This document shows, piece by piece, positions 15,470 through 62,391 of a DNA stretch of 64,000 bases; positions within the stretch are counted from its first letter, which is position 1; each line of letters opens with the position of its first letter. The stretch is taken from assembly GCA_009839745.1 (NCBI GenBank), contig VXPE01000042.1, positions 1 through 64,000 of the forward strand, written 5' to 3'. Source of the stretch: Candidatus Poribacteria bacterium (GTDB lineage Bacteria; Poribacteria; WGA-4E; WGA-3G). The notes beneath the pieces were generated by a model, which worked only from the letters and a program-made list of their open reading frames with translations, had not been told where the DNA came from and made no database searches. The position numbers were made by a program, and so were the translations under genes.

Positions 15470-16528
15470 ATGAAGCGGATAGGATTTATTTTTTTACTCT
15501 TAGTTTTTGGTATCTTGCCCGTATTTGGACAGCCTGCAAATAGCAGCCTGCAAGTTTTAGACGCACAACACCCCAACTTTGAGGACAAAAAACAGGTAAG
15601 AGGTGTTCTTATTGCGCAAGGCTTAATGGCACAGAATTTGGAAGAGGTTCCTGATGCGTCCACAATGCAAAGTGATGTCACTGATTCAGAGAACGGAAAG
15701 ACCACAGATGAAGGGCATCTACAGCGAAAAGAAACACGACGGATATTTAAGATTATTAACAACTATCAGTTAGCAGAAGGTAAGGTCCTCACAACACTCG
15801 TTATAATCGCGGCAGACGCAAACTTACAAGGGCAGGTGACCGGCAACGTATTAGTCATCGGCGGAGATGTTTACTTGTCGCCAGAGGCACAAGTGAATGG
15901 AACTTTACACATTATCGGTGGGCAAATTACTGGAAATACACAAGGCATCGCTAACCTTCAAGTCAGCAATGATTGGCATCTGGTACCCGCTGCGGCTCAT
16001 CTTGCTATGCATCCACATACCTTCTGGGGTATCAGTAAGCAAGCGAATTTTCGCCTGACCCTCATTAAAATTGGATTTTCCCTCTTGATGTATCTGTTGA
16101 TAGCAGCCGTGCTTTTAAAGCCGATAAATGAGATAAGCGAACTTTTCGCGAGGCGACCGATCAGCAGTATATTATTCGGTATCCTGATGTTAGTTATGAT
16201 ACCTTTCTTCCTCGCGGTGTTGACGCTGTCAATCATCGGTGTGCCATTCATGCTACTGTCCCTTTCGCTTTTAGTTCCCTTTGCTATTTGTGGAAAGGCA
16301 GCGATTTTCTTGACGCTCGGGAGTACCCTCTTTTCAGGGCGATGGAGACCGCTCGCAGTCATATTTGGTTATATCCTCTATTACATGGCAACATCCGTGC
16401 CGTATATTGATTGGGCAGCGTTTCTCATAGTCAATAGTATCGCTATTGGACTCTGCCTGCTAAGCGGCATCAGTATGATACGTTCGCAAGAACCCCGTAG
16501 AAACATTTCTTGGTCGGAAAGAGTGTAG
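15470..16528 (+). CDS. Membrane protein with a bactofilin-like (polymer-forming) domain
   Basis: 352 residues. The ATG at 15470 follows AGGAAAT; an earlier in-frame ATG would add a 35-residue tail translated from the leader hairpin, which is unlikely. A signal peptide ends near VFGQPA. Residues ~120-180 (LVIIAADANLQGQVTGNVLV, GGDVYLSPEAQVNGTLHIIGG) are a short beta-helix of the bactofilin type. At least four transmembrane helices follow. This is the common exported polymer-forming/membrane design; the role is probably envelope-related but unproven. It overlaps or abuts the VWA gene downstream. Confidence 0.75.
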   Translation: MKRIGFIFLLLVFGILPVFGQPANSSLQVLDAQHPNFEDKKQVRGVLIAQGLMAQNLEEVPDASTMQSDVTDSENGKTTDEGHLQRKETRRIFKIINNYQLAEGKVLTTLVIIAADANLQGQVTGNVLVIGGDVYLSPEAQVNGTLHIIGGQITGNTQGIANLQVSNDWHLVPAAAHLAMHPHTFWGISKQANFRLTLIKIGFSLLMYLLIAAVLLKPINEISELFARRPISSILFGILMLVMIPFFLAVLTLSIIGVPFMLLSLSLLVPFAICGKAAIFLTLGSTLFSGRWRPLAVIFGYILYYMATSVPYIDWAAFLIVNSIAIGLCLLSGISMIRSQEPRRNISWSERV

Positions 16529-17822: not shown

Positions 17823-17908
17823 GCCTGCAACAATACGCAGAAATACCGGATTTAGTCTGGGAATAGACTAAATCCATTCCTTGTATTACATTGCAAAAAC
17901 ACGCAGGC
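17823..17908. repeat. GCCTGC...GCAGGC dispersed element carrying a 28-nt palindrome
   Basis: Bounded by GCCTGC and GCAGGC. Its core at 17848-17875 is a palindrome with arms GGATTTAGTCT and AGACTAAATCC around GGGAAT. Read on the minus strand, the core and the preceding TGTAATACAAGGAA match 48165-48210 inside the namZ coding sequence. The element at 62348-62391 has the same ends but lacks the palindrome, so the palindrome looks like a separate insertion. Confidence 0.8.
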
Positions 17909-17955
17909 GGGTATACGGATAGAAACGTTACTTAACCAATTCACCTGAACGAACC

Positions 17956-17974
17956 GCAAGGTAAAATTAAAAAG
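17956..17974 (+). promoter_or_regulatory. CCGCAAGGTAAAATTAAAAA element providing the ribosome-binding site
   Basis: ACCGCAAGGTAAAATTAAAA ends one base before the ATG of the isomerase; AAGG is the likely Shine-Dalgarno core. Similar elements in the same orientation precede genes starting at 5663, 32307, 42545, 46170 and about 51588, and reverse copies lie at 19122, 19232, 49147 and 62431. Confidence 0.7.
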
Positions 17975-18736
17975 ATGGAAAATATTATTGCATGTAATTT
18001 GGGCAGCTACCGACAGTTTCGAGACGTGGCATACACCCACTTAGCAGAGATCGGTTTAACGAATGTGGAGATCGGTGTGCCTGCCTCTGAATCTGTTGAT
18101 GCCCTCCGTGCGGAATTGGACGCGCACGGACTCACCGCCACAAGTCTGCTTGGCAGTTGTGACGTTCAATCTGAAACGGTCGTCTCAGATTTTCAGACGA
18201 CGCTGGACATCGCTGATCAGATGGGTGTAAAGATTATTTTCGTCAGCGTGCACGCCGGTGAAGCAGATATCAACGCGGTCTATGATCGGCTTCGTGCCAT
18301 CGGCGAAAACGCTGCCCCGACAGGCATTAAGGTCTGTCTGGAAACACATCCTGATATGGTGCATAATGGCGATATCGCACTTAAAACGATGCAAGCCGTG
18401 AATCATCCGAATATTTGCGTCAATTTCGACACGGGGAATGTTTACTACTACAACCACAATGTAACGGCTGTTACGGAAGTCCAGAAAGTCATTGAACACG
18501 TTGGTGCCGTCCACCTCAAGGATACAAACGGTGGCTATCGAACCTGGAATTTCCCAGCACTCGGGGAGGGCGTTGTCGATTTTAAAGCGGTATTTCAAAC
18601 GTTGAACGACGCGGGTTTCTACGGGCCCTTCACGATGGAATTAGAAGGGATCGAGGGTGAAAACCTCGATGCGGCAGGTGCCAAGGCACGGGTGGCAGAC
18701 TCGCTGCAACACTTGAAAGATATTCGCGTAATTTAA
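17975..18736 (+). CDS. Sugar phosphate isomerase/epimerase (xylose isomerase-like TIM barrel)
   Basis: 253 residues of the AP-endonuclease-2/xylose isomerase-like TIM barrel, a metal-dependent sugar isomerase or epimerase fold. ICLETHPDMVHNG (as VCLETHPDMVHNG), NICVNFDTGNVYYY, VGAVHLKDTNGG and GPFTMELEGIEGEN carry the usual E, D, H and E metal ligands in order. Cytoplasmic; substrate not predictable. It is followed after 19 bp by a cupin and then an aldo/keto reductase, an arrangement typical of small sugar or inositol catabolic operons. Confidence 0.87.
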   Translation: MENIIACNLGSYRQFRDVAYTHLAEIGLTNVEIGVPASESVDALRAELDAHGLTATSLLGSCDVQSETVVSDFQTTLDIADQMGVKIIFVSVHAGEADINAVYDRLRAIGENAAPTGIKVCLETHPDMVHNGDIALKTMQAVNHPNICVNFDTGNVYYYNHNVTAVTEVQKVIEHVGAVHLKDTNGGYRTWNFPALGEGVVDFKAVFQTLNDAGFYGPFTMELEGIEGENLDAAGAKARVADSLQHLKDIRVI

Positions 18737-23958: not shown

Positions 23959-24645
23959 TTACCAATTAAATTGAGAGAGATGCTCCTCAATTTGATCATG
24001 AGTCATATATTGTGAAAGCAGCCGTCGCGACCCCTCCAAAACTTGCTGTTTTTCTGCGTCGCTCAACTTGGGAATATACTTGTTAGCAGCACGAATCATG
24101 TCCGCTTGCAAACCATCGGCTTGCCGTTTCAATTCCCGAGCACCTGTCTCCGTCTCTATCAGTTTTAAAATCTCGGATTCTGGCAAAGATAGGAGCGGAT
24201 ACTGATTCATAATCATGTTGTACGCCTCTTGCATCTCTCGTCCGAAATTTTCTGCCGAAAAATTAGCAAGGTATGGATCCTCGGTTGGCTCAATAGTTTC
24301 AGGAGGCTGAGTGGTAATCTCCTCGGTTGGGGTGGACGTAGGCACCTCTGCTTTAAACATTTCCACCGATCCGAGTTGCGTTTCAACAGAATCGACTGTC
24401 TCTGTAGACGGTTGCGTTTCAACAGAATCGACTGTCTCTACAGACGGTTGCGTTTGATCCACACCCCCCTGATGCACCTGTGTTTTCTCTGAAGATTTCA
24501 CCACCGGCGGGGGGTGGGTTGTCTTGTAAACCTTCACAGGCACTCGTCGTGCCTGTGACTTGTAAGTATTGACTCCCAAGAATCCTGCGATTCCGATACA
24601 AACGAGGACACAGCACCAAAAAAACTTAGATTCAAACAAAGACAT
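23959..24645 (-). CDS. Membrane-anchored protein with repetitive linker
   Basis: 228 residues from the ATG at 24645 (MSLFESKFFWCCVLVCIGIA), a single N-terminal anchor. A proline/threonine/glutamate-rich linker follows, including two tandem 12-residue units (SVETVDSVETQP / STETVDSVETQL) encoded by a 36-bp direct repeat at about 24380-24451. The C-terminal part (NFGREMQEAYNMIMNQYPLL to LSQYMTHDQIEEHLSQFNW) is helical. It is probably periplasmic and belongs with the small membrane gene upstream and the ECF sigma factor. No family recognised. Confidence 0.65.
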   Translation of the reverse strand: MSLFESKFFWCCVLVCIGIAGFLGVNTYKSQARRVPVKVYKTTHPPPVVKSSEKTQVHQGGVDQTQPSVETVDSVETQPSTETVDSVETQLGSVEMFKAEVPTSTPTEEITTQPPETIEPTEDPYLANFSAENFGREMQEAYNMIMNQYPLLSLPESEILKLIETETGARELKRQADGLQADMIRAANKYIPKLSDAEKQQVLEGSRRLLSQYMTHDQIEEHLSQFNW

Positions 24646-47847: not shown

Positions 47848-49182
47848 ATGTCTTTCACGACAAAATCACAGAAAATTGAATTAGGATTGACAGTCCTGCT
47901 CACAGAAAAAAAGGACTGGATTCGCGGGAAATCAATTGGTCTGATTACAAACCACACGGGAGTTGATGCCACTTTACGAAGCAATTACCGACTTTTCGCG
48001 GCGGCATCATCGTGTCGGCTTTCTGCGATCTTCTCTCCGGAGCACGGGTTCTGGGGCGCGGTTCAAGATGGCATCGCTGTCAATAGCCTCGATGTCTCAG
48101 ATGAAAACGCATCGCGAAGAAATGAAGAAATCCGCAGAAATACCGCGCTGAATGCCACAGGCGCAAATGTAATACAAGGAACGGATTTCGTCTATTCCCA
48201 GACGAAATCCAGCGTTGATTCGCACAAAACACCCCACCTCACGAGCGTCCCGGTCTATAGTCTGTATGGACAATCAGTGCGTCCAACAGCACGCCAACTG
48301 GAAGATATTGATTTGCTTATCTACGATATGCAAGATGTCGGAACGCGTTATTATACCTATATCTCAACGCTGCTACATGCAATGGAAGCCGCCAGCGACC
48401 ACGACATTGATTTCGTCGTCGCAGACCGTCCGAATCCGATTGCGTGCAATGCTGTGGAGGGACCGATATTGGAAAGCGGGTTTGAATCGTTTGTCGGCAT
48501 ACATACAATGCCTGTCCGTTACGGCTTGACAATCGGTGAATTGGCAACACTGTTAAAGATGGAGCGTGTCCCAGGGTGCCGTTTAAACGTTGCATGGATG
48601 CCCGGGTATGAACGCGGAATGTGGTATGATGACACCGGCTTGCAGTGGGTGCCCCCCTCGCCCAATATGCCGACACTCACAACGTCAACACTCTATCCCG
48701 GCTTATGCTTGTTTGAAGGCACAAATATGAGCGAGGGCAGAGGAACGACAAAACCCTTTGAATATATCGGCGCGCCTTGGTGTAATGGTGAAAAGTGGGC
48801 TGAGACCCTAAATGCTTTGTCTCTCCCGGGTGTTCTGTTCCGTCCAACTGTTTTTACGCCTGCCCCAGTTGCTGAAACCACAAAGCACGCGAAACAACCA
48901 TGCGGCGGCGTTGCAATCCATATTACCGATAGAGAACGTTTTCTGCCAGTAGAGACGGCTATCTACATGTTATCCACTTTAACTACTGAATACGGCGACC
49001 ATTTTGCGTTCCGACCCGAGCACTTTGATCGATTAGCAGGAAATAATTGGCTCCGAGATGCGCTGTTAGATAGAGAGCCATTGGATAAGATTCAGGCACA
49101 GTGGACTGAAGAGCTTCAGATATGGCGTGAAAACACAACCCAGTTTTTTAATTATTCCTTGCGGAGAAACGGAGGACGTTAG
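47848..49182 (+). CDS. namZ: Exo-beta-N-acetylmuramidase NamZ-like (DUF1343), with in-frame palindromic insertion
   Basis: 444 residues. The family removes terminal MurNAc from peptidoglycan fragments. GKSIGLITNHTGVDATLRSN, AIFSPEHGFWGAVQDG, PVYSLYGQSVRPTARQLEDI, DLLIYDMQDVGTRYYTYIST and VADRPNPI are its hallmarks. Between EHGFWG and PVYSLYG the usual short loop is replaced by about 50 residues (82-132). Residues 112-121 (TDFVYSQTKS) are encoded by a palindrome that also occurs between genes at 17848. The last 12 residues (FFNYSLRRNGGR) are translated from a reverse CCGCAAGG element. No signal peptide is clear. Confidence 0.88.
   Translation: MSFTTKSQKIELGLTVLLTEKKDWIRGKSIGLITNHTGVDATLRSNYRLFAAASSCRLSAIFSPEHGFWGAVQDGIAVNSLDVSDENASRRNEEIRRNTALNATGANVIQGTDFVYSQTKSSVDSHKTPHLTSVPVYSLYGQSVRPTARQLEDIDLLIYDMQDVGTRYYTYISTLLHAMEAASDHDIDFVVADRPNPIACNAVEGPILESGFESFVGIHTMPVRYGLTIGELATLLKMERVPGCRLNVAWMPGYERGMWYDDTGLQWVPPSPNMPTLTTSTLYPGLCLFEGTNMSEGRGTTKPFEYIGAPWCNGEKWAETLNALSLPGVLFRPTVFTPAPVAETTKHAKQPCGGVAIHITDRERFLPVETAIYMLSTLTTEYGDHFAFRPEHFDRLAGNNWLRDALLDREPLDKIQAQWTEELQIWRENTTQFFNYSLRRNGGR
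48163..48210 (+). repeat. Dispersed palindrome inside namZ
   Basis: Contains ATGTAATACAAGGAAC and then arms GGATTTCGTCT and AGACGAAATCC around ATTCCC. Compared with the intergenic copy at 17848-17895 (opposite strand), the stem pair A-T is changed to C-G on both sides. The frame is not broken. Confidence 0.85.
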
Positions 49183-62347: not shown

Positions 62348-62391
62348 GCCTGCAACAATACGCAGAAATACCCTATCAAAAACACGCAGGC
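62348..62391. repeat. GCCTGC...GCAGGC element without the inserted palindrome
   Basis: GCCTGCAACAATACGCAGAA, ATACCCTATCAAAAACACGC and AGGC. The ends match the element at 17823-17908, but CTATCA stands where that one carries the palindrome and its flank. Confidence 0.7.

Follow-up and report, generated by a model that had tools for sequence, protein, structure and literature searches.

A 45-nt hairpin unit nested in frame in namZ of Candidatus Poribacteria, a probable miniature mobile element of one genus

The namZ gene and its composite insert

The window (the whole stretch of DNA that was analysed, 64,000 nt; G000:C42:1-64000) belongs to a Candidatus Poribacteria MAG of 5.04 Mb in 141 contigs. 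It carries a namZ gene, the product of which matched Pfam NamZ_N (8.2e-74) and NamZ_C (1.1e-53), and the close NamZ relatives among named records were all Candidatus Poribacteria MAGs. The gene holds an insert built of several repeats, among them a 45-nt unit, here called H1, and a second hairpin, H4. Both also occur as cores in copies of a dispersed repeat, the outer repeat. The features are as follows.

47848..49182, + strand: namZ (exo-beta-N-acetylmuramidase, DUF1343/GH171 family), 444 codons, bearing the nested repeat insert
48117..48144, + strand: left arm, duplicated (AAGAAATGAAGAAATCCGCAGAAATACC) as against the empty allele (AAGAGATACC) in the junction alignment with L071/L072; resembles the outer repeat arm
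48145..48165, + strand: first part of the second hairpin core H4, GCGCTGAATGCCACAGGCGCA; the core also occurs in intergenic copies, and a complete H4 lies in L161
48166-48210, + strand: H1 copy in namZ, reading NVIQGTDFVYSQTKS in the namZ frame; stem-loop at 48183-48210
48211..48222, + strand: remainder of H4, AGCGTTGATTCG; H1 stands where H4 has TTC
48223..48235, + strand: right arm, CACAAAACACCCC, one base longer than in the repeat (CAAAAACAC), which keeps the frame open
17848-17892, - strand: intergenic H1 copy with an A-T stem pair, forming inverted pair I2 with the namZ copy
17823..17908, + strand: intergenic outer repeat GCCTGC...GCAGGC with H1 as its core
62348..62391, + strand: outer repeat with the short core CTAT, without H1

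Same-genus NamZ orthologs aligned to residue 94 at most and resumed at about residue 126. An earlier note on this DNA had put the addition at about 50 residues; measured against the nearest ortholog, the insert came to less, a net 93 nt or 31 residues. One simple insertion was rejected because the insert splits into a left arm duplication (+18 nt), the second hairpin core (+32), H1 (+42) and an extra right-arm base (+1), and the gene records a stepwise nested build-up instead. The second hairpin core and the arms beside it are part of a larger family of dispersed repeats.

The palindrome insert was absent from the namZ of relatives. The two closest orthologs (L071 and L072) were about 93% identical to namZ on both sides of the insert and carried only a short seed (AGAGATACCCAAGCAAAAACGCC), which resembles the outer repeat and lies in a variable loop after the EHGFWG motif. 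L071 reads GCATCGCGAAGAGATACCCAAGCAAAAACGCCCCACC at the insert site, similar to the short outer repeat AGAAATACCCAAGCAAAAACAC, and in the more distant L074 and L075 even the seed was absent. In L083 this loop held a different in-frame palindrome, GTAGGGGCGAGGTAACCTTGCCCCTAC, of which L081, L084, L085 and L087 carried degenerate forms, so the loop has taken up such inserts repeatedly. Outside the insert, the dN/dS of namZ against L071 was about 0.13-0.17, and such purifying selection would fit a working enzyme. The AlphaFold model of NamZ (18 sequences) had a mean pLDDT of 49, which was too low to place the insert.

Other repeats were observed in the window. The NamZ C-terminus YSLRRNGGR (window 49142-49182) comes from a further dispersed repeat (TTTTTTAATTATTCCTTGCGG...); the orthologs stop earlier. 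Tandem repeats were present as a 35-nt unit in about 5 copies at 199-365 and a 36-nt unit in about 2 copies at 24375-24455.

Anatomy, distribution and hosts of the H1 unit

H1 (AATGTAATACAAGGAAYGGATTTAGTCTATTCCCAGACTAAATCC) consists of a conserved 17-nt 5' part outside the stem and a 28-nt hairpin (nt 18-45; stem-loop 11+6+11), and the palindrome described in the earlier note is its 3' part. As that note had claimed, the namZ copy matches the reverse complement of the intergenic copy (93% over 45 nt), and an A-T stem pair is exchanged for C-G on both sides of the 28-nt palindrome; one linker base (C/T) differs as well. The match was not unique in the genome. By pattern search, on which all H1 counts rest, a 43-nt H1 pattern with up to 3 mismatches gave 10 matches in the own genome, the exact string TGTAATACAAGGAA occurred 13 times, every time in family context, and a 21-nt 5' pattern was found in all 38 genomes of the genus at 1-35 copies each, while the reversed controls of the 43-nt and 21-nt patterns gave 0. 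The palindrome is therefore not a product of chance. Outside the genus, one of the 46 checked phylum genomes held H1, as two diverged copies. A search of viral contigs, phages and plasmids gave no H1 matches, and a search of the window against Rfam 15 gave no family at or above the gathering score.

Coding copies were a minority in the two genomes of which all or nearly all copies were read, 1/13 in the own genome and 1 or 2 of 21 in G041. Frame 1 is the sole open frame of the H1 consensus (NVIQGMDLVYSQTKS), and the copies in genes use it. Besides namZ, H1 was found in frame in LpxK of G041 (Pfam 4.2e-85), an ATP-grasp ligase, a metallo-beta-lactamase (two genomes), a TPR protein, an alpha-2-macroglobulin (A2M) protein, an M28 peptidase and several TnpB genes, some of these genes lying in the single-contig assemblies G005 and G053. 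Clean empty orthologs exist for NamZ, LpxK and TnpB. For example, most of about 25 LpxK orthologs were empty at the H1 place, and the LpxK of the own genome has a GTAGGGG...CCCTAC palindrome there, without H1. One LpxK loop in the genus has been entered in frame by several different repeats (L334, L414, L415, L373, L419).

In TnpB genes of five genomes (L434, L435, L436, L439, L463, L388), H1 sits immediately behind the Asp of SVGAD (taken here as the RuvC-I Asp), and the insertion might affect the nuclease. The 5' flanks of the H1-bearing TnpB genes fell to 54-59% identity although H1 had hardly changed, a pattern that points to repeated entry or to homogenisation. The TnpB tree needed three changes, and the AU test put a single origin of H1 only at the border of rejection (p = 0.05). 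All filled TnpB copies shared one stem variant, so the entries may not be independent.

Most H1 copies occupy the centres of other repeats, mainly other palindromes. The outer repeat (GCCTGCAACAATACGCAGAAATACC-core-CAAAAACACGCAGGC) gave 91 pattern matches in the own genome (control, 0), 60 in G008 and 47 in G023. It is nearly always intergenic, and its core is either short (CAAG or CTAT) or a hairpin of one of several kinds, H1 included. In G023, orthologous intergenic sites had flanks of about 94-96% identity around differing cores. Its terminal stem varies in pairs (GCCTGC/GCAGGC, GCTTGC/GCAAGC, GCCCGC/GCGGGC and CATTGC/GCAATG; e.g. L174, L186, L198, L199). The motif GAACCGCAAGGTAAAATTAAAAA (window 17950-17975, with similar sites at other copies) precedes several gene starts beside the outer repeat and could serve as a common leader or as a ribosome-binding segment. 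That the short outer core has many coding copies in the own genome was considered and rejected, the candidate ORFs being mostly spurious-looking or N-terminal extensions.

An empty form was identified for six host types, and in all six H1 occupies the place of a single TTN trinucleotide. The empty forms read GCAGAC-TTC-GGTATG in TnpB, CACACGCGCA-TTC-AGCG in the H4 arm, GTTTTTGC-TTG-GGTATTTC in the outer repeat and GGA-TTT-AGTCT in H1 itself, which is host to self-nested copies; further hosts were the palindromes GTAGGGGTTGGG-TTA-CCCAACCCCTAC and GGTAGGTTCGG-TTT-CCTAACCGAACC. Only for TnpB is the same gene compared on both sides; in the palindrome pairs, the empty and filled forms are different copies of a repeat. 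That TTN replacement holds generally is inferred from these six host types. Entry adds a net 42 nt (14 codons) and is frame-neutral. At the sites examined, TTN was lost and target duplication was absent.

Origin of the copies and of the namZ insert

We believe, with a probability of roughly 0.7, that H1 is a non-autonomous miniature mobile hairpin of one Poribacteria genus and that namZ received it by import of a core. Its ends are fixed across hosts with unrelated flanks. No site with H1 both present and absent inside one population was seen, so its current mobility is something that we only infer.

The strongest alternative is that H1 is no transposable unit and that all copies, the namZ copy included, owe their spread to gene conversion across short arms that they share, together with template switching at hairpins. 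Cores have indeed been exchanged between shared arms at orthologous sites, nested hairpins and self-nesting are template-switching hot spots, and no H1 mobiliser is known. However, the same two H1 ends recur in hosts without shared arms (TnpB, the GTAGGGG and GGTAGGT palindromes and the outer repeat), and we consider this explanation unlikely.

The stem of H1 bears on a second alternative, in which H1 is a selected functional RNA hairpin (a terminator, an mRNA stability element or a regulatory element) within and between genes. Pairing holds in 95.9% of the stem cells of 44 distinct H1 sequences, three of the 11 pairs vary on both sides, and 15 two-sided changes were counted against 2.3 in shuffles (0/500 shuffles reached this); one-sided mismatches were also present in some copies. 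The covariation is thus real, and selection for the hairpin is one reading of it; the mostly intergenic position of the copies would agree with an RNA function. The earlier note had spoken of pressure to keep a hairpin, and in that form the claim was not supported. Studies have shown that template switching between stem arms can make and restore paired stems without selection (PMC8794818), and paired changes are expected from this process as well. The C-G pair of namZ is also present in the intergenic copies C42:107276 and C80:40481, with the same composite core, so it is no evidence of selection in namZ and was, judged from these sequences, probably imported with the donor core. In addition, an Rfam match was absent, the gene context was not fixed, and outer repeat copies lay in both orientations relative to neighbour genes. 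A selected RNA is therefore very unlikely as the explanation of H1. Covarying stems in such repeats need not signal functional RNA.

That namZ is a pseudogene in decay or a product of faulty assembly, its insert having no evolutionary meaning for proteins, is scarcely credible, because for all that this is a MAG assembly and every other genome's namZ is without the insert, the frame stays open through it with the help of the extra right-arm base, the dN/dS is as given above, and similar in-frame H1 copies occur in other genes, including those of the single-contig assemblies.

Under the mobile-hairpin reading, the filling of namZ could have proceeded as follows. The composite core of namZ is nearly the same as that of the intergenic copies C42:107205 and C80:40410, and cores are exchanged at orthologous sites; both points argue that the namZ seed got its core from a dispersed copy. 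The seed centre would have been exchanged for the composite core, that is, the second hairpin already holding H1, by ectopic conversion between shared arms with a donor like one of these two copies. The arm duplication and the +1 indel would then have left the frame open, and the 31-residue insert would be tolerated because the loop is naturally variable. The paired stem changes may come from arm-to-arm copying (template switching), from a structural need for mobility or from both, rather than from a role in NamZ.

With less confidence, we suggest that H1 travels as a single-stranded DNA hairpin, perhaps mobilised in trans by a Y1 (RAYT/IS200-type) transposase. The own genome has seven Y1 transposase matches. 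One Y1 (RAYT-like) gene (L295; G000:C51, around 15902-16201) has several copies of a palindrome (GGTAGGTGCGGTTTCCTAACCGCACC; host palindrome B) on both sides and is likely a REP/RAYT unit with them. A complete H1 was found near none of the seven Y1 loci of the own genome, and the search gave no autonomous partner of H1. It is a tentative proposal that H1 represents an undescribed mobility mode, in which a 45-nt hairpin replaces TTN, prefers palindrome loops, inserts into itself and is frame-neutral (+42 nt), and that several palindrome families thus accumulate stepwise in the same protein loops (NamZ, LpxK).

Comparison with known palindromic repeats

Studies have shown that Rickettsia palindromic elements (RPEs) are 105-146 bp (about 150 bp) long, have 12-bp terminal inverted repeats and lie in frame in 19 Rickettsia genes (PMC2229807; PMC10969869). 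The earlier note had proposed an RPE-like system, and part of this stood: like RPEs, H1 is a lineage-specific palindrome dispersed in and between genes, mostly intergenic, fused in frame through one open frame to unrelated proteins (NamZ and at least six other families), with the mobiliser not known (PMC2229807, PMC10969869). The size and anatomy differ. H1 has 45 nt instead of 105-146 bp, has no 12-bp terminal inverted repeats, and forms a hairpin at its 3' end only rather than one whole-element stem-loop; it also replaces TTN, nests in other palindromes and occurs in Poribacteria. H1 is therefore an in-frame coding palindrome like RPE, yet it is not an RPE, being set apart by RPE size and ends as described, and it is best filed among protein-coding palindromic repeats. 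The guanylate kinase of R. conorii is reportedly active with its RPE insert.

REPs are stem-loops of 20-40 nt with complementary stem variants, some within genes, and Y1 transposases have been proposed as their movers (PMC3733652). H1 resembles them as a short stem-loop with complementary variants of its 11-bp stem, and host palindrome B (GGTAGGTTCGGTTTCCTAACCGAACC), which includes GTAG, lies on both sides of a Y1 gene, as in the REP/RAYT arrangement (PMC3733652). In contrast to REPs, the H1 consensus ends without a GTAG or CGTC tag, H1 has a 17-nt 5' part, REP-like palindromes serve as its insertion site, and the Y1 gene is flanked by host palindrome B and not by H1. With ERIC/YPAL and MITE-like elements, H1 shares that it is non-autonomous, structured, mostly intergenic and occasionally fused to genes (PMC2229807), whereas those elements are about 100-200 bp long, several with target-site duplications, and H1 is 45 nt long with TTN loss and no duplication.

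Outside Rickettsia, coding palindromes are mentioned for Wolbachia and Methanocaldococcus, as cited in PMC2229807; their likeness to H1 is one of kind, drawn from description and not from sequence. A literature search for Poribacteria together with palindromic elements gave no paper on such elements among those listed, judged by titles and abstract openings; most subscription papers were outside its reach, so an earlier description may exist.

Most known coding palindromes come from Rickettsia, few having been described in other organisms, and their mode of movement has long been an open question. H1 shows RPE-like coding palindromes arising in an unrelated phylum. The H1 set offers 38 related genomes, several hosts with exact empty sites and a simple candidate target rule, and it makes the frame-preserving entry of palindromes into genes directly testable. 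In Poribacteria, proteins gain loop peptides from selfish DNA.
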